Below are positions 35,836 through 43,744 of a stretch of DNA of 43,744 nucleotides, one piece after another. Position numbers and translations under genes: made by a program. Below the pieces are notes generated by a model. The model saw only the letters and a list, made by a program, of their open reading frames with translations, was not told the origin of the DNA and searched no databases. Origin of the DNA: Myxococcota bacterium (GTDB lineage: Bacteria > Myxococcota_A > UBA9160 > SZUA-336); the NCBI GenBank assembly GCA_035498015.1, contig DATKAO010000068.1:1-43744 (forward strand), given 5' to 3'. How positions within the stretch are numbered: the stretch's first letter is position 1; each line of letters opens with the position of its first letter.

Positions 35836-36468
35836 ATGGAACCCCAGCTCCAGCCCGCGGCCCTGCGCCGCAACCGCCAGCGCGAGGAAGCCCGCCGGGC
35901 CATCCTCGACGCGACCGAAGCGATCCTGCTCGAGGACGGCGAGGAGCTCTTGTCGATCCGCAAGCTCGCGCTGCGCTGCGGCTATACGGCGCCCACGATA
36001 TACCACTATTTCCGCGACAAGGACGGACTCATCGACGCGCTGCTCGAGGAGCGCTTCTCGCGGCTCTTGCAGCGCATCCGGCGCGTCGCGCTCGTCGCCG
36101 ACCCGGTGGCGAACATCCGCGAGTACTCGCGCGCGTTCTTCCGCTTCGCGTCCGCCAACCCGACCTTCTACCGCGTGATGATCCGCGGCTCGAGCGACGG
36201 CGGCGAGCGCAAGATCCAGGCCGCCGAAGCGGCGCGCGAGATCATGTCGGACCAGCTGCGCGCGCTGGCGGCCGCCGGCCGGCTGTGGACGACCGACGTC
36301 GACGCCGCGCTCCAGTCACTCTGGGCGGTGCTGCACGGCGTGGTCGCGCTGCGGCTGGGCAACCCCAAGTACGGTTGGTCGAAGAATTTCAGCGAGGTTG
36401 CGCTGGAGACGGTGCTGCGCGGACTGGTCCGCCCCGCCCTGGCCCGCAACGGAAAAGGCCCGTCGTGA
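35836..36468 (+). CDS. TetR/AcrR family regulator of the RND efflux operon
   Basis: A 210-residue regulator. The helix-turn-helix region spans about 15-62, with 'AILDATEAILLEDGEELLSIRKLALRCGYTAPTIYHYFRDKDGLID' represented by IRKLALRCGYTAPTIYHYF. The C-terminal domain ('FFRFASANPTFYRVMI', 'LQSLWAVLHGVVALRLGNP') matches the TetR_C group that often guards efflux genes. The stop overlaps the adaptor start as GTGA (36465-36468). The ATG at 35836 is chosen because the DNA-binding domain begins soon after it; upstream open sequence is over the operator. The likely site is at 35787-35818. Confidence 0.9.
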   Translation: MEPQLQPAALRRNRQREEARRAILDATEAILLEDGEELLSIRKLALRCGYTAPTIYHYFRDKDGLIDALLEERFSRLLQRIRRVALVADPVANIREYSRAFFRFASANPTFYRVMIRGSSDGGERKIQAAEAAREIMSDQLRALAAAGRLWTTDVDAALQSLWAVLHGVVALRLGNPKYGWSKNFSEVALETVLRGLVRPALARNGKGPS

Positions 36469-37601
36469 AGAAGACACGCATCGCACTCACTCTGTCGCTC
36501 GCCGCTGCGCTCGCGCTGGGCTGCTCGGGAAAGAAGCAGGAGAAGGCCGTCGCCGCGCCCAACGTGTCGCTGGGCGACGCGACCGCGGTAGACATCGACG
36601 ACCGCATCGAGGCGACGGGCGAGCTGGTGTCTCCCAACCACGCGAAGATCGCGGCCGAGGTCGGCGGGCGAATCACTTCGCTGTACATCAACGAGGGCCA
36701 GCCCGCGCACGCCGGCGACCGCGTGCTCGAGATCGACCCCGAACGGCGCGAGCTCGATCTGCGCGCCGCGCGCGCCAGCAACGCCGAGGCGCAGGCGGGG
36801 CTCGCCGACCAGAAGCGCGCCGCCGAGCGCGCCGCGGCGCTGTTCAAGAAGAACGTCGCCTCGCAGGCGCAGCTCGACACGGCGCAGACCCAGCTCGAGC
36901 TGGCGCGCTCGCGCGCCGACGCGGCGGCCGCCCAGCTCGGCCAGTCCGAGCGCGCGCGCCGCGACGCCGAGGTGAAGGCGCCGTTCGCGGGCCTGATCGC
37001 GCAGCGCTTCGTCTCGGTGGGCGAGTTCGTGCAGCCCGGCACGCCGCTGTTCGAGCTGGTCGCGCTCGACCCGATCGAGGTCGAGTTCCGCGTGGCCGAG
37101 GTCGACTCCAGCCGCGTGCGCTCCGGACAGGTGGTCGACGTGCGCGTCGCGCCGTTCCCCGACGAGGTGTTCCAGGCCACGGTCACCCTCGTCTCGCCCA
37201 TGATCGACCCGGCGTCGCGCACGCTGCGCGTGAAGGGCACGCTCGCGAACCCGGACGGCAAGCTGCGCCCCGGCCTGTTCGCGCGCGCAGACCTCGGCGT
37301 CGCGCACCGCGAGGCCGTGCTGATGATCCCCGACGAGGCCGTGCTCGAGCGCTCCGACGGCAAGGTCGTGTTCCGCATGGCCGGCCCAGACAAAGTCGAG
37401 CGGCGCGTGATCCAGACCGGCGCGCACAAGGGCGGCAAGGTCGAGGTCGTCGAGGGCCTGGCGAACGGCGACAAAGTCGTGACTCGCGGGCACACCGCGC
37501 TGGTCGACGGCGCGATCGTGGCGATCCGGAACCCCGACGGCAGCCTGACCGAGCCCGACGTGGCGAGCGGCGTCGCGCACGAGCCCGCGCGGACCGAGTG
37601 A
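36465..37601 (+). CDS. RND efflux periplasmic adaptor (membrane fusion lipoprotein)
   Basis: A 378-residue adaptor of the HlyD/AcrA type. GTG start at 36465, overlapping the TetR stop. A lipoprotein signal ends in LALGC (C20). Then come the first beta-barrel/lipoyl half (EVGGRITSLYINEGQPAHAGD), a helical hairpin of about 65 residues (about 105-165, Ala/Gln/Arg-rich), the second lipoyl half (VKAPFAGLIAQRFVSVGEFV), the barrel and the membrane-proximal domain (RVIQTGAHKGGKVEVVEGL, GDKVVTRG). It links the pump to an outer-membrane channel. No TolC-type channel gene is next to it. Confidence 0.92.
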   Translation: MKKTRIALTLSLAAALALGCSGKKQEKAVAAPNVSLGDATAVDIDDRIEATGELVSPNHAKIAAEVGGRITSLYINEGQPAHAGDRVLEIDPERRELDLRAARASNAEAQAGLADQKRAAERAAALFKKNVASQAQLDTAQTQLELARSRADAAAAQLGQSERARRDAEVKAPFAGLIAQRFVSVGEFVQPGTPLFELVALDPIEVEFRVAEVDSSRVRSGQVVDVRVAPFPDEVFQATVTLVSPMIDPASRTLRVKGTLANPDGKLRPGLFARADLGVAHREAVLMIPDEAVLERSDGKVVFRMAGPDKVERRVIQTGAHKGGKVEVVEGLANGDKVVTRGHTALVDGAIVAIRNPDGSLTEPDVASGVAHEPARTE

Positions 37602-37602
37602 C

Positions 37603-40600
37603 ATGACGTTCTCCGACATCGCGATCCAGCGGCCTGTCCTGACCTGGATGATGATGCTCGCGCTCGTGGTCGCGGGCGTGCTGGGAGTCACTCGGCTGGG
37701 CGTCGACCAGTATCCGCCCATGGAATTCCCGAACGTGATGGTGGTGGCCACGCTCGAGGGCGCGAACCCCGAGGCGATGGAGGAGGACGTGACCGACGTC
37801 CTCGAGGAGAACCTGAACACCATCGCCGGCGTGCGCGAGCTGCGCTCGACCTCGATCACGGGTATCTCGCAGATCGCCGTGGAGTTCCAGCTCGGCACCA
37901 ACCTCGACCGCGCGATCCAGGACGTGCGCGACGAGGTGGGCAAGGCGCGGCGCAACCTGCCGCGCGAGGTCGAGCCGCCCACGATCAGCAAGCTCAACTT
38001 CTCGGACCAGGCGATCCTCTGGATCCCGTTCAGCTCGAACCGCTCGCCGGTCGAGACCTCGGAGTACGTGCGCCGGCACGTGAAGCCGCTGCTCGAGACG
38101 ATCCCGGGTGTGGGCGGCATCCAGCTGTTCGGCCGGCGCGACCGCGCGATCCGCATCTGGGTCGACGGCGAGGCGCTGCGCTCCCGCGGGCTGGCGGCCA
38201 CCGACATCATGAACGCGCTGCGCCGCGAGCACGTCGACATTCCCGGCGGGCTGGTCGAGGGCGAGCGCGTCGAGTGGACGGTGAAGACCGACGCCGAGTT
38301 CCACTCGGTCGACGCCATGGAGAAGATGGTGATCGCGCAGCGGCCCGACGCGCCGGTGCTCCTGCGCGACGTGGCGCGCGTGGAGGACGGCGAGGACGAT
38401 GTGCGCGCGACCGCGCGCTTCCGCGGCATCCAGACCGTGGGCGTGGGGGTGCGCAAGCAGTCGGGCGGAAACACGGTCGCGATCTGCGACGAGGTGCAGC
38501 GCCGCTTGGATCAGCTCCGGCCGCTCCTGCCCGAAGGCATCACGATCGGCGACGGCCACGGCTTCATCGACTTCTCGCAGTCGATTCGCGAGTCGGTGTC
38601 CGAGACGGAATTCGCGCTGGTGTTCGGCGGGCTGCTCGCGGTGTTCACGGTGTTCGTCTTCCTGCGCCGCACGCGGCCCACGCTGATCGTGGCCACGGCC
38701 ATCCCCGTGTCACTCATCACCACCTTCGCGCTGGTCTGGATCGCGGGCTACACGCTGAACACGATGACCCTGCTCGGCATGGCGCTGGCGATCGGCGTCG
38801 TGATCGACGACGCGATCATCGTGCTCGAGAACATCGAGCGGCACCGCGAGATGGGGAAGTCACCCATGGAGGCCGCGCGCGACGGCACGCGCCAGATCAC
38901 CTTCGCCGCCACCGCGGCGACGCTTTCGGTCACGGCCGTGTTCCTGCCCGTGGTGTTCGTGCAGGGCATCATCGGCAACTTCTTGTCGGAGTTCGGGCTC
39001 ACCGTCGCGGGCTCGGTGCTGATCTCGCTGTTCGTCGCGCTCACGCTGACTCCCATGCTGGCGGCGCGCGTGCCGCCGCCCAAGGAGCGCGCGCACGGCA
39101 GCATCTACCACTATCTCGAGCGCGCGTTCGAGAAGCTCGAGCAGGCTTACCGCGCCGGCCTGCGCTTCACCCTCTCGCACCAGTGGCCCACGCTGGGCTT
39201 CGCCGCGCTCTCCTTCGTCGCCATCGTGGTGATGTTCAGCCGGGTCGAGAAGGAGTTCTTCCCGCCCTCCGACCGCGGGATGTTCTTCTCCATGTTCGAG
39301 ACACCGCCCGGCACGGCACTCGCCGCGACCGAGGCGATGCTCGACGTGAACGAGAAGTACGTGATGGCCCAGCCCGAGCTCGTGGGGCTGTTCGAGGCGG
39401 TGGGCCTCGGCGGTCCCGACGGTGTGCCGCGCGCGAACCGCGGGATCATGTTCGCGACGTTGAAGCCGCTGCGCGCTCGGCAGCGCCGCGTGCAGCAGAT
39501 CATCGAGGACGCACGCGCCGTGCTCGAAGCCGTACCCGGGCAGAACATCAAGATCATGGACCCGTCGGTCATGCAGGCGGGCGGCGGCCAGGCGCAGTTC
39601 GAGGTCATGCTGCGCGGGAACCTTGCGCTCCAGGACCTGGACGAGGCCGCGGACAAGTTCATCGCACGGCTGCGCGCGAAGGGCGGCTTCGTCGGCATCG
39701 ACAAGAGCTTGAAATTGGGCTTGCCCGAGGTGCGCGTGCTGCCCGATCGCGAGAAAGCCGCCGAGCTCGGCGTCGACGCGACCCAGCTCTCGCAAGTCGT
39801 GCAGCTCCTGATCGGCGGGCTCGAGGTCGGGCAATTCAAGGACGGCGGCCACCGCTTCGACATCCGCATGCGGCTCGACCGCCAGAACCGAGATACTCCA
39901 GACGCGATCGAGCAGCTCTACGTGCGCAGCATGGACGGCAAGCTCACCTCGCTGCGCAACCTGGTGAAGCTCGAGACGGGCGCCGCGCCCTCGGAAATCA
40001 CACGCAGCAACCGGCAGCGCAGCGTCTCCGTCACTGCGAACCTCACCCCCGACAAGAAGCTCGGCACCGCGATCGAGGACGCGTTCGCGGTGGGCAAGGA
40101 GGTCCTGCCCGAGGACATCACGCTGGGACTGTCGGGCTCGGCGCAGTCACTCCAGGAGAGCGGCAAGCAGTTCCTGCTGGCCGTGGGCCTGGGTCTCCTG
40201 GTCATCTACATGGTGCTGGCCGCGCAGTTCGAGAGCCTGGTGCACCCGCTCACCGTCATGCTCGCCGTGCCGTTCGCGATGGTCGGGGCGCTGGGCGGCC
40301 TGCTCCTGACTCACAACACGATCAACCTGTTCAGCATGATCGGCATCCTGCTGTTGTTCGGGCTGGTGACCAAGAACTCGATCCTCCTGGTCGACTACGC
40401 CAACCAGCTGCGCGCCGAGGGCCTCGACAAGGTCACCGCCATGAGCCGCGCTGCGCCGATCCGCATGCGGCCGGTGCTGATGACCGGCGTGGCGATGATC
40501 TTCGGCGTGCTGCCCGCCGCGTTCGGCGTCGGCCCTGGCGCCGAGACACGCCAGCCGATGGCGGTCGCGACCGCGGTCGGGATGCTGTCGTCGGTGGTGT

Positions 40601-40758
40601 TCACGCTCCTGATCGTGCCGGTCTTCTACATCAAGCTCGACGACGGCATCGAGTGGCTGAAGCGCACGCTGCGCCGGCGCCCGTACGCCGCCGCCCCTCA
40701 GGCCCCGCGCGGCGCGTCGGAGCACACCCTGCCCCAGGCCGACAAGCCCGCCGCCTAG
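37603..40758 (+). CDS. RND multidrug efflux transporter (HAE1-type permease)
   Basis: A 1051-residue inner-membrane pump, the usual length of AcrB-class proteins. The proton relay is complete: adjacent Asp residues in VVIDDAIIVLENIERH (D402, D403; AcrB D407, D408) and the Lys in VTKNSILLVDYANQL (K924; AcrB K940). Two large periplasmic loops follow TM1 and TM7, as expected. It starts 1 nt after the adaptor stop. It pumps hydrophobic or amphipathic compounds out in exchange for protons. Substrate unknown. It ends 90 bp before the Fur-controlled operon. Confidence 0.95.
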   Translation: MTFSDIAIQRPVLTWMMMLALVVAGVLGVTRLGVDQYPPMEFPNVMVVATLEGANPEAMEEDVTDVLEENLNTIAGVRELRSTSITGISQIAVEFQLGTNLDRAIQDVRDEVGKARRNLPREVEPPTISKLNFSDQAILWIPFSSNRSPVETSEYVRRHVKPLLETIPGVGGIQLFGRRDRAIRIWVDGEALRSRGLAATDIMNALRREHVDIPGGLVEGERVEWTVKTDAEFHSVDAMEKMVIAQRPDAPVLLRDVARVEDGEDDVRATARFRGIQTVGVGVRKQSGGNTVAICDEVQRRLDQLRPLLPEGITIGDGHGFIDFSQSIRESVSETEFALVFGGLLAVFTVFVFLRRTRPTLIVATAIPVSLITTFALVWIAGYTLNTMTLLGMALAIGVVIDDAIIVLENIERHREMGKSPMEAARDGTRQITFAATAATLSVTAVFLPVVFVQGIIGNFLSEFGLTVAGSVLISLFVALTLTPMLAARVPPPKERAHGSIYHYLERAFEKLEQAYRAGLRFTLSHQWPTLGFAALSFVAIVVMFSRVEKEFFPPSDRGMFFSMFETPPGTALAATEAMLDVNEKYVMAQPELVGLFEAVGLGGPDGVPRANRGIMFATLKPLRARQRRVQQIIEDARAVLEAVPGQNIKIMDPSVMQAGGGQAQFEVMLRGNLALQDLDEAADKFIARLRAKGGFVGIDKSLKLGLPEVRVLPDREKAAELGVDATQLSQVVQLLIGGLEVGQFKDGGHRFDIRMRLDRQNRDTPDAIEQLYVRSMDGKLTSLRNLVKLETGAAPSEITRSNRQRSVSVTANLTPDKKLGTAIEDAFAVGKEVLPEDITLGLSGSAQSLQESGKQFLLAVGLGLLVIYMVLAAQFESLVHPLTVMLAVPFAMVGALGGLLLTHNTINLFSMIGILLLFGLVTKNSILLVDYANQLRAEGLDKVTAMSRAAPIRMRPVLMTGVAMIFGVLPAAFGVGPGAETRQPMAVATAVGMLSSVVFTLLIVPVFYIKLDDGIEWLKRTLRRRPYAAAPQAPRGASEHTLPQADKPAA

Positions 40759-40848: not shown

Positions 40849-42198
40849 ATGTCCGTCCGAGCCGTGGTGTGTTTGGGGTGGGGTTGCTGCGCGCTGTGGG
40901 CGCTCGCGGGCGCGCCGCCGGCCTGCGCCGACCCGCCGGCGCCCGCGCCCGCCGCGAGTGACCGCGACGTCGCGCGCGACGACGAGATCGCGGACCTGAA
41001 GCGCCAGCTCTCGACCGTGGTCGACGAGGTCGAGAAGCTGCGGGCCCAGGTGGCCGCGCCCGAGCAGGAGACCGAGCTCAAGGCGCAGAACGGCTTCGGT
41101 CCCGCGGCCGCCAAGGTCTACTCGATCGCCAAAGGCGTCTCGATCGGCGGCTACGTCGAGGGTCACTACGGCTTCAAGGACATGGGCGACGCGCGCGGCG
41201 ACAACGAGGCGAACCTCGACCGCGAGGTCTTGTATCTCGGCTACAAGTTCAACGACTGGATCGCCTGGACCTCGGAGATCGAGTTCGAGAACGCGACCAC
41301 CGAAGAGAACGGCTCGGTCACGGTCGAGTTCTCGACGCTGGACTTCATGTTCAAGCCCGAGATCAACGCGCGCGTCGGCGTGCTGCTCTTGCCGATGGGC
41401 ATCCTGAACGAGGTGCACGAGCCGCCCTTCTACTACTCGACCTTCAAGCCGCAGGTCGAGACCGCGATCATTCCCACCACCTGGTCGGACTACGGAGCCG
41501 GCGTGTACGGCCGCATCGGCGAACAGCTCAGCTACCGCGTGTATCTCGTCGACGGCCTGAACGCGCAGGGCTTCGAGAGCGGCGGCATTCGCGAGGGCCG
41601 GCAGGCCGCGAGCGAGGCGCTCGCGAACGATCTCGCGTTCGTGGGCCGGCTCGAGTGGGAGCCGCTCGCGGGCCTGTCACTCGGCACCTCGTACTATCAG
41701 GGCAACTCGGGTCAGAACCAGAAGATCGACGTGCTGGGCAGCGAGCAGAAGCTGCCCAAGGCACCGGTCTCGATCTGGGAGCTGCATTCGATCTACCGCT
41801 GGCAGGGGCTGACCCTGCGCGCGCTGTACGCGCAGTCGCACATCGGCAACGCGGGTGAGTTGTCGAGCCTGTTCAGCGCCGCGGACCACGACGAGCCGGT
41901 GATCTCGAGCCGCATGTTGGGCGGCTACGGCGAGGTCGCGTATGATGTCATGCCGCTGCTGTCGCCCGGCTCGGAGATGTCTCTCGAGCCGTTCTTCCGC
42001 TGGGAGTATCTCGACACACAGAACAACGTCCCGTCCGGCTTCGTCGCGGATCGCCAGTGGAAGCAGCGCGTGTACGTGCCCGGCATTCAGTTCAAGCCGA
42101 TCCCGAACGTCGTGCTGAAGCTCGACTATCGCAACGTCGACGACTTTGCCGGGAAGGTGGGGGATCAGGTCGACCTTGGCTTCGGGCTGGTGTTCTAG
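40849..42198 (+). CDS. Outer-membrane porin with N-terminal coiled coil
   Basis: A 449-residue protein. Signal peptide of about 27 residues, then an Ala/Pro-rich stretch, a heptad-like coiled coil at about 44-70 (DDEIADLKRQLSTVVDEVEKL), then many alternating beta strands with aromatic girdles (GGYVEGHYGFKD, VLYLGYKFNDWIAWTSEIEF, GAGVYGRIGEQLSYRVYLVDGL) and a C-terminal strand ending VDLGFGLVF, with the terminal Phe that BamA recognises. It resembles phosphate-selective (OprP/DcaP-like) porins with a coiled-coil stalk. As first gene behind a Fur box it may admit an iron complex or an electron carrier; that is inference. Its end overlaps the next gene. Confidence 0.88.
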   Translation: MSVRAVVCLGWGCCALWALAGAPPACADPPAPAPAASDRDVARDDEIADLKRQLSTVVDEVEKLRAQVAAPEQETELKAQNGFGPAAAKVYSIAKGVSIGGYVEGHYGFKDMGDARGDNEANLDREVLYLGYKFNDWIAWTSEIEFENATTEENGSVTVEFSTLDFMFKPEINARVGVLLLPMGILNEVHEPPFYYSTFKPQVETAIIPTTWSDYGAGVYGRIGEQLSYRVYLVDGLNAQGFESGGIREGRQAASEALANDLAFVGRLEWEPLAGLSLGTSYYQGNSGQNQKIDVLGSEQKLPKAPVSIWELHSIYRWQGLTLRALYAQSHIGNAGELSSLFSAADHDEPVISSRMLGGYGEVAYDVMPLLSPGSEMSLEPFFRWEYLDTQNNVPSGFVADRQWKQRVYVPGIQFKPIPNVVLKLDYRNVDDFAGKVGDQVDLGFGLVF

Positions 42199-42724
42199 CC
42201 TCGCGCTCTGTCTCGTGCTCGCGGCGGGCCCGGCGCGTGCGACCGTCTACGCGACGCAGGACGCGGCGCTGCACGACGCCTTCCCCGACGCCGACGCGAT
42301 CGAGGCCAAGAGCTACGTGCTCGACGACGCGCAGGTCGAGCGCGTGCGCCAGCTTGCCGAGACCGAGGTCGACCGCAAGCTGTGGACGATCCACACCGCG
42401 CGGCGCGCGGGGCAGACGCTGGGCTACGCGCTGCTCGACCTGCGCACCGTGCGCACGCTGCCCGAGGCGCTGCTGGTCGTGCTGACTCCCGAGGGCACGG
42501 TGCGTTCGCTGCGCATCCTGGCCTTCCACGAGCCGGCCGAGTTCCAGCCGCCGCCGCGCTGGCTCGCGCTGTTCGAGGGCCGCAAGCTCGACGACGAGCT
42601 CAAGCTCAAGCGCGGCATCCAGCAGATCACGGGCGCCACGCTGTCGTCGCAGTCGGTGACTCGCGCGGTGCGCACGGCGCTCGCGCTGTACCAGGTGCTG
42701 ATCCAGAAGCCCGCGGGGGGGTGA
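42146..42724 (+). CDS. Exported FMN-binding domain protein (likely ApbE substrate)
   Basis: A 192-residue exported protein: a signal peptide of about 31 residues with basic n-region, then one FMN-binding domain. Its flavinylation loop is ITGATLSSQSVT; the Thr of GAT is T165 and would take the covalent FMN. The Asp that usually precedes the motif six residues back is Gln here. The start is uncertain: TTG 42146 gives a basic signal peptide but overlaps the porin by 53 nt; TTG 42176 is possible. It should act in the periplasm as a one- or two-electron carrier. It lies 4 bp before the membrane gene. Confidence 0.85.
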   Translation: MPGRWGIRSTLASGWCSSLALCLVLAAGPARATVYATQDAALHDAFPDADAIEAKSYVLDDAQVERVRQLAETEVDRKLWTIHTARRAGQTLGYALLDLRTVRTLPEALLVVLTPEGTVRSLRILAFHEPAEFQPPPRWLALFEGRKLDDELKLKRGIQQITGATLSSQSVTRAVRTALALYQVLIQKPAGG

Positions 42725-42728
42725 GTCG

Positions 42729-43265
42729 ATGCGCTTCGTGGTCTCGGGCGAGATGAGCCGGAACCGCCTGTTGCAGGTGATCGTGCTGCTCTACTCGCTG
42801 TACGTCGCGCTGCTCTGGGTCACGAACGCCCTGCTCTACTTCTCCAAGATGTCGCTCACTCCGGCGTCGGTGGTGAGCTACTACCTGGGCTCGGAGCAGG
42901 CCTTCACCGAGCCGCGCAGCTATCTCGGCATGCTCGAGATCTCGCACTTCCACCTGTTCGCGATGGGCATGCTGCTCATGGTGCTCACGCACCTGGTGTT
43001 GTTCGTGCCGCTTGGCAACCGCACCAAGATTGCGCTCGTCGTGACTCCCTTCCTGTCGGCGCTGCTCGACGAGGGCTCGGGCTGGCTGGTGCGCTTCGTG
43101 TCTCCGGGCTTCGCCTGGGCGAAGATCGCCGGCTTCCTGGCGCTCCAGGGCAGTCTGGCGGCGCTGGTCGGGCTCGCGGTCTGGTCGGTGCTGTCGGGCA
43201 CCTCCGACAACTACCGCAGCGGCGAGAACGGCGCGGAGCTCGACGACGACGAGGAGCTCGATTGA
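42729..43265 (+). CDS. Four-helix membrane protein with His motif (putative haem/quinone partner)
   Basis: A 178-residue integral membrane protein with about four helices: 14-38, 70-95, 100-122 and 131-155, and an acidic C-terminal tail. Conserved-looking His residues sit in HFHLF (H73, H75) and THLVLF (H88), within or next to helix 2, suitable as haem-b or quinone ligands. I do not recognise a named family. Its place between an FMN-binding protein and ApbE suggests that it feeds electrons across the inner membrane to the flavoprotein. ATG start at 42729; the stop overlaps the ApbE TTG start as TTGA (43262-43265). Confidence 0.8.
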   Translation: MRFVVSGEMSRNRLLQVIVLLYSLYVALLWVTNALLYFSKMSLTPASVVSYYLGSEQAFTEPRSYLGMLEISHFHLFAMGMLLMVLTHLVLFVPLGNRTKIALVVTPFLSALLDEGSGWLVRFVSPGFAWAKIAGFLALQGSLAALVGLAVWSVLSGTSDNYRSGENGAELDDDEELD

Positions 43266-43744
43266 GGCGCGGCGCGCGCGCGGCCGCGCTCGCGGCGTGT
43301 CTCGCGTGCGCCCGGCCCGAGCCCCTGCCCGATGCGCGCGTGGTGTGTCCCGCCATGGTCTCCGACGGCCAGTACCGCATGGGCACGGTGCTCGAGATCA
43401 GCCTGTGCGCGCCGGACCGCGCCACGGGCGAGGCGCTGCTGCGCGAGAGCTTCGCCTCGGTGGCCGCGCTCGAGCACGCGAGCTCGACCTTCGACGCCGC
43501 GAGCGAGGTCTCGGCGCTGAACCGCGCCGCCGGCCGCGGTCCGCAGCGCGTGTCGCCGGCGCTCGCGCGACTCACTGCCGACTCGCTGGCCTTGACGCCC
43601 GCAACGCGCGGCACGTTCGACGTGACGGTCGGGCCGCTGATCGCGCTGTGGAAGGCGGCGGCCGAGGCGGGCCGGCTGCCCGGCGCGGCCGAGCTCGCGG
43701 CGGCGCGCGCGCGGGTGGGCGCGGAGCGCGTGGCGGTCGATGCC
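43262..43744 (+). CDS. apbE: FAD:protein FMN transferase ApbE, N-terminal part (runs off the right edge)
   Basis: An open frame of 161 residues to the end of the window, so the gene is truncated. From the TTG at 43262 (4-nt overlap with the membrane gene): a short hydrophobic signal with Cys residues (LAACLAC), hence maybe a lipoprotein, then the ApbE landmarks: YRMGTVLEIS near 38-47, TFDAASEVSALNRAAG near 75-90, and RGTFDVTVGPLIALWKAA near 117-134. ApbE moves FMN from FAD to the Thr of exported FMN-binding proteins, fitting the gene two places upstream. The Asp/Thr-rich Mg2+ site lies beyond the window. Confidence 0.9.
   Translation, partial: MRRGARAAALAACLACARPEPLPDARVVCPAMVSDGQYRMGTVLEISLCAPDRATGEALLRESFASVAALEHASSTFDAASEVSALNRAAGRGPQRVSPALARLTADSLALTPATRGTFDVTVGPLIALWKAAAEAGRLPGAAELAAARARVGAERVAVDA

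Follow-up and report, generated by a model that had tools for sequence, protein, structure and literature searches.

In NQR and RNF, the periplasmic partner (NqrC/RnfG) carries an FMN_bind domain and belongs to a multi-subunit complex. According to the main texts of two papers, MsrQ-like and PepSY-like cytochromes link the inner membrane to ApbE-flavinylated domains by electron exchange (PMC8238504; PMC11334425). Small membrane proteins with conserved histidines also occur beside apbE or ferrosome genes; as the main text of PMC11334425 describes them, haem b is shown for DUF4405, which has six TM helices and four central His, and for FezC, which is modelled as a homodimer. The main text of the 2021 flavinylation survey further reports genomes that have extracytosolic flavinylation and no identified membrane electron-transfer component (PMC8238504).

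We analysed a 43,744-nucleotide stretch of DNA from a Myxococcota bacterium (the window), at the end of which a porin, an FMN_bind protein, a four-TM protein and ApbE are encoded in this order in a tight operon (Table 1). The ATG of the four-TM gene follows the FMN_bind stop by 4 bases, and its own stop is overlapped by 4 bases by the TTG start of ApbE. The operon resembles NQR and RNF in its FMN_bind protein and differs from them in having a single four-TM protein, not a multi-subunit complex. The flavin-based electron-transfer system is itself of a known kind, and the four-TM protein is its new membrane component. With a probability of roughly 0.55, we propose that this protein serves a compact flavin redox system as its electron-transfer subunit in the inner membrane, with a putative haem b that would connect the quinone pool and FMN.

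Table 1 Genes of the operon and histidine codons of the four-TM gene (positions in the window).
Feature	Position	Strand	Basis or remark
Outer-membrane porin	40849..42198	+	Signal, N-terminal coiled coil and about 16-strand barrel; AlphaFold2 model and Foldseek
Periplasmic FMN_bind protein	42176..42724	+	Pfam FMN_bind above cut-off, E 9e-7; ORF opens at 42146, likely TTG start at 42176 picked by reading the sequence
Four-TM protein	42729-43265	+	178 aa, ATG start
HFH motif codons	42945-42953	+	His73, Phe74, His75
His88 codon	42990-42992	+	In the four-TM protein gene
ApbE FAD:protein FMN transferase	43262..43744	+	N-terminal 161 aa only; contig ends inside the gene

A sequence-only reading had placed the four-TM gene between a flavoprotein and its maturation enzyme, and both flanks agree with it, the downstream one matching Pfam ApbE at E 2.4e-21 over profile positions 1-114. 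The FMN_bind protein also matched RnfG, weakly and below the cut-off. Its predicted flavinylation acceptor is Thr165 (numbered from 42146), and the ApbE acceptor position of 80 aligned FMN proteins is occupied by Thr (78) or Ser (2). A search for the pattern [ST]GA[ST] had found it in just 27 of 79 FMN proteins, which seemed to oppose flavinylation; the alignment, however, showed that the first residue varies while the acceptor Thr/Ser is present in all 80. The locus has the marks of a flavinylation-associated system: apbE lies in the cluster, as does an extracytosolic substrate that has an acceptor site for ApbE. A second, truncated ApbE match (profile 68-263) lies at a contig edge in the same genome (G000:C43:1-603), and may or may not be the remainder of the window's ApbE. 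The AlphaFold2 model of the porin (pLDDT 85.7) gave OmpC-type and OprP/OprO porins as its best Foldseek matches (E 1e-10 to 1e-12). At 36285-40758 of the window, immediately before the porin gene, lie a TetR-like gene and an RND efflux pair of pump and membrane-fusion protein, all named from their translations. The pump has no homologue across 80 related loci.

Modelling the four-TM protein as a monomer by AlphaFold2 (pLDDT 86.7, pTM 0.77), we obtained long helices at residues 7-40, 65-90, 97-123 and 126-156 and a short helix at 45-53. Its only histidines are 73, 75 and 88, and the model places all of them on the second TM helix (65-90), as had been claimed from the letters of the sequence. 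The further idea that a pair of axial ligands would be spaced by about 14 residues did not hold. The spacings are 13 residues (75-88) and 15 residues (73-88) on one continuous helix, which amounts by helix arithmetic to about 20-22 Å and is wrong for a single haem, so the His73/His75 pair and His88 cannot clasp one haem between them. By the same arithmetic, His73 and His75 would point to opposite faces of the helix, while His73 and His88 would share a face at a distance of about 22 Å.

The four-TM family is missing from the protein-family catalogues that we searched. No relative was found beyond chance level in Pfam, NCBIfam or PDB sequences (GtrA, E 0.41), no Pfam family matched more than 2 of 81 family members even at E 0.1, and a plasmid collection held no relative. 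The earlier description of the protein as otherwise unassigned thus stands, as the profile searches match no family of other function. Among the best 50 of 245 Foldseek matches of the model, none reached E ≤ 0.001; comparison with the four-TM MAPEG proteins in this set gave a best E of 0.37, with TM-scores of about 0.4-0.6 and rmsd of about 9-12 Å. The VIA-align rows shown were soluble or generic four-helix bundles with Z up to 10.6, a level common for helical bundles. Among the papers that searches of the open PMC literature brought up, none was recognisably on this operon or this family; the words "porin" and "hypothetical" are absent from the main text of PMC8238504, and "porin" from that of PMC11334425.

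We also compared the family directly with described haem b proteins. The likeness to DUF4405 and FezC lies in small size, conserved His and gene neighbourhood, as described in the main text of PMC11334425; compared with DUF4405, the four-TM protein has four TM helices and three conserved His with an i,i+2 pair, and no profile relation to it. Homology to DUF4405 was not supported, with an hhalign probability of 0.28% and the DUF4405 profile matching none of the 81 members up to E 0.1. Homology to MsrQ/Ferric_reduct was likewise not supported (0.64%; no Ferric_reduct or PepSY match among the 81 members); MsrQ-like and PepSY-like proteins, as they appear in the cited main texts, share the proposed electron-exchange role of the four-TM protein without a sequence match to it. 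The DUF4405 and MsrQ sets miss each other as well (1.85%), which makes the hhalign negative for haem b families a weak one; these sets came from the same phylum and comprised 28 of 29 (DUF4405) and 25 of 30 (Ferric_reduct) fetched loci, the rest having failed a hydrophobicity filter, with locus L182 excluded from the start. A Ferric_reduct (MsrQ-type) protein is encoded on another contig of the window's genome (G000:C16:16001-16345).

Conservation of the histidines had been set beforehand as a check. A motif-seeded scan, with FHLFAMGM as one seed, collected 80 loci from Myxococcota/Deltaproteobacteria MAGs, Methylococcales and one Krumholzibacteriota MAG, among others. Aligned with the window protein, these gave 81 rows with a mean column identity of 62% and 15 invariant columns, in which His73, His75 and His88 are included. 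The seed could bias the His count, so we re-tested conservation by searching 235 genomes from the window's phylum with the whole profile. Sixty genomes matched, 41 closely (E ≤ 6.4e-59) and 19 remotely. All three His are again invariant in the 41 close, unseeded members, along with Glu70, Glu115, Trp119, Arg122 and Lys132. Met79, which lies within the seed, is kept in only 35 of these 41, and the seeded set is therefore biased at that position.

The alignment of the 81 rows shows the His-x-His followed by MxM ('HFHLFAMGM'), which raises the question of a metal permease or metal site. Copper or iron would be bound by the two motifs, reduced by the flavin or cytochrome and imported by the membrane protein, the porin admitting the metal complex. 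A reductase and a porin would fit such a role, and the family occurs in genomes of methanotrophs, which need copper. However, besides the variation of Met79, the MxM is not kept in the two more distant branches described below, and no further gene recurs around 25 compared loci. We regard this explanation as unlikely.

Those 25 loci, mostly from Methylococcales, hold the porin in 24, the FMN gene in 25 and the four-TM gene in 25 cases, and no other cluster of protein-coding genes is spread to a similar extent among them; antisense frames overlapping the three genes cluster too. At the 80 seeded loci we counted FMN_bind homologues in 79, porins in 65 and apbE in 43, with many contigs short or cut and the truncated window copy as the apbE query. 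At 40 unseeded loci the FMN gene was present in 39, the porin in 34 and apbE in 37 (same strand in 30, opposite strand in 7). An operon of the porin, FMN_bind, four-TM and ApbE type is common to Myxococcota and Methylococcales. In the Methylococcales loci apbE is not adjacent, and one Methylomonas genome that we checked has two ApbE elsewhere. This bears on whether the four-TM protein is a cofactor-free anchor that docks the FMN protein and ApbE to each other, as its close operon with ApbE might suggest. Methylococcales keep the four-TM protein without a neighbouring apbE, the most distant branch keeps it with haem c and without ApbE, and the invariant His would be left unexplained, all of which makes such an anchor very unlikely.

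Sequence comparison divides the family into three branches: F, which includes the window protein, X from other Myxococcota, and C from Pseudomonadota. The hhalign probabilities are 99.7% for F-X, 97.5% for C-F and 97.8% for C-X. Branch X comprises the remote matches in the window's phylum, 17 of 19 of which were fetched. It keeps Glu70, His73, His75 and His88, and its loci carry the FMN gene (16/17), apbE (11/17) and the porin (7/17). At one branch X locus (L094:5079-5822, +), the expected place of the porin, next to the FMN gene, is taken by a divergently encoded DUF6662 protein.

Branch C came from a profile search of 398 genomes in the phylum of a Methylomonas genome (Pseudomonadota), in which 31 matched, nearly all remotely. 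The 29 frames examined are mostly 240-300 aa long, and all 29 have a CxxCH haem-c motif between TM1 and TM2. Homologues of FMN, apbE and porin genes were found at none of nine branch C loci (12 kb each); their neighbours include a small monohaem cytochrome c (4/9), a trihaem cytochrome c (3/9) and a HemN-like gene named by reading its translation (4/9). Scanning three branch C relatives (from L117-L145 and L146-L154), we obtained no Pfam or NCBIfam model above cut-off.

Across 127 rows (81 F, 17 X and 29 C), His73 and His75 are present in every one, and only Gly54, His73, His75, Leu76, Phe77 and Trp119 are universal or nearly so. In branch C, position 88 is Arg, Ala or Leu instead of His, and position 70 is Arg or Lys instead of Glu; Met41, Met79, Lys132, Glu115 and the MxM are not kept across branches. 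The absence of His88 from branch C points to His73-x-His75 as the essential pair. Whichever periplasmic carrier is used, flavin or haem c, the His-x-His core is retained, and this constancy speaks for a subunit that transfers electrons in the membrane. The conserved His are candidate ligands of a membrane redox cofactor, and haem b in the four-TM protein is a plausible candidate.

A haem-free route was also considered, in which His73/His75 would form a site at the periplasmic face for quinol binding and deprotonation, and FMN would be reduced directly by quinol. The small size of the protein, its three His and the invariance of Glu70, Glu115 and Lys132 in branch F would suit such a site, as would the lack of a second conserved His set for bis-His ligation. 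However, Glu115 and Lys132 are lost in X and C, Glu70 is replaced in C, and an i,i+2 pair that faces opposite sides suits two cofactors better than one site. This route is possible, and we doubt it.

In haem-copper oxidases, a His-x-His on TM X ligates two haems. As in the four-TM protein, this motif of haem-copper oxidase and NOR subunit I belongs to a unit of four helices and stands on the second of them, a likeness at the level of the motif only, and we saw it in the COX1 loci compared as well. Because the His-x-His is so alike, we tested whether the four-TM protein is a divergent relative of subunit I that corresponds to its third four-helix repeat (TM IX-XII). Locally, hhalign did align F best with COX1 at that motif, over 16 columns. 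Yet the hhalign probabilities are only 0.2-3.9%, no COX1 match occurs among the 81 members, and no further conserved His is present. Without the His columns, the anchored match takes only rank 21 among 336 TM-like positions and rank 10 among 309 for F, and lower ranks for X and C. Outside the His pair, the resemblance does not clearly exceed background; homology to COX1 was not supported, and we give common descent with subunit I hardly any weight.

Returning to the electron-transfer subunit, its orientation can be proposed from branch C. A haem c domain must be periplasmic, since cytochrome c maturation takes place there. The CxxCH thus puts the TM1-TM2 loop of branch C in the periplasm, so that TM2 would run from periplasm to cytoplasm, with His73/His75 in its periplasmic third and His88 near its cytoplasmic end. 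The N and C termini would both lie inside. With only three conserved His per chain, a bis-His haem needs an oligomer, as is modelled for FezC in the main text of PMC11334425, or a non-His ligand; Met41, Met79 and Lys132 are candidates for the latter, though unconserved across branches. We infer that, in an oligomer, a membrane cofactor is bound by the His73/His75 pair, with haem b as the likeliest candidate; any haem at His88 would be a second one. Through this cofactor, the quinone pool and the periplasmic FMN would exchange electrons. In branches F and X the carrier beside it would be covalent FMN, and in branch C haem c. The sequence-only reading had made the four-TM protein the electron donor; the context gives good support to a redox role in exchange with the flavoprotein, in which it may be donor or acceptor. 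Transfer from quinol to FMN seems likelier than the reverse, and the FMN protein may then reduce a small acceptor for which the porin would be the entry. The neighbourhood encodes neither a cytosolic nor a quinone-binding partner. More speculatively, the family might represent an undescribed, oligomeric class of membrane cytochrome, in which an i,i+2 His pair on one helix would hold two haems on opposite faces, by analogy with TM X of haem-copper oxidases, and the core would be paired with a covalent-FMN protein or with haem c; we consider this a tentative suggestion.

The four-gene operon offers a candidate membrane component for some of the survey genomes mentioned at the outset. Close matches show the four-TM gene in 41 of the 235 genomes searched in the window's phylum, and it also occurs in methanotrophs. 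Its three branches form a natural experiment, in which the same membrane core goes with flavin in two branches and with haem c in the third, and the interchange of flavin and cytochrome carriers thereby becomes directly testable. The main text of the survey has a section headed on modular flavinylation/cytochrome usage (PMC8238504), and the carrier swap, if read in this way, would extend such modular usage to a new membrane protein.
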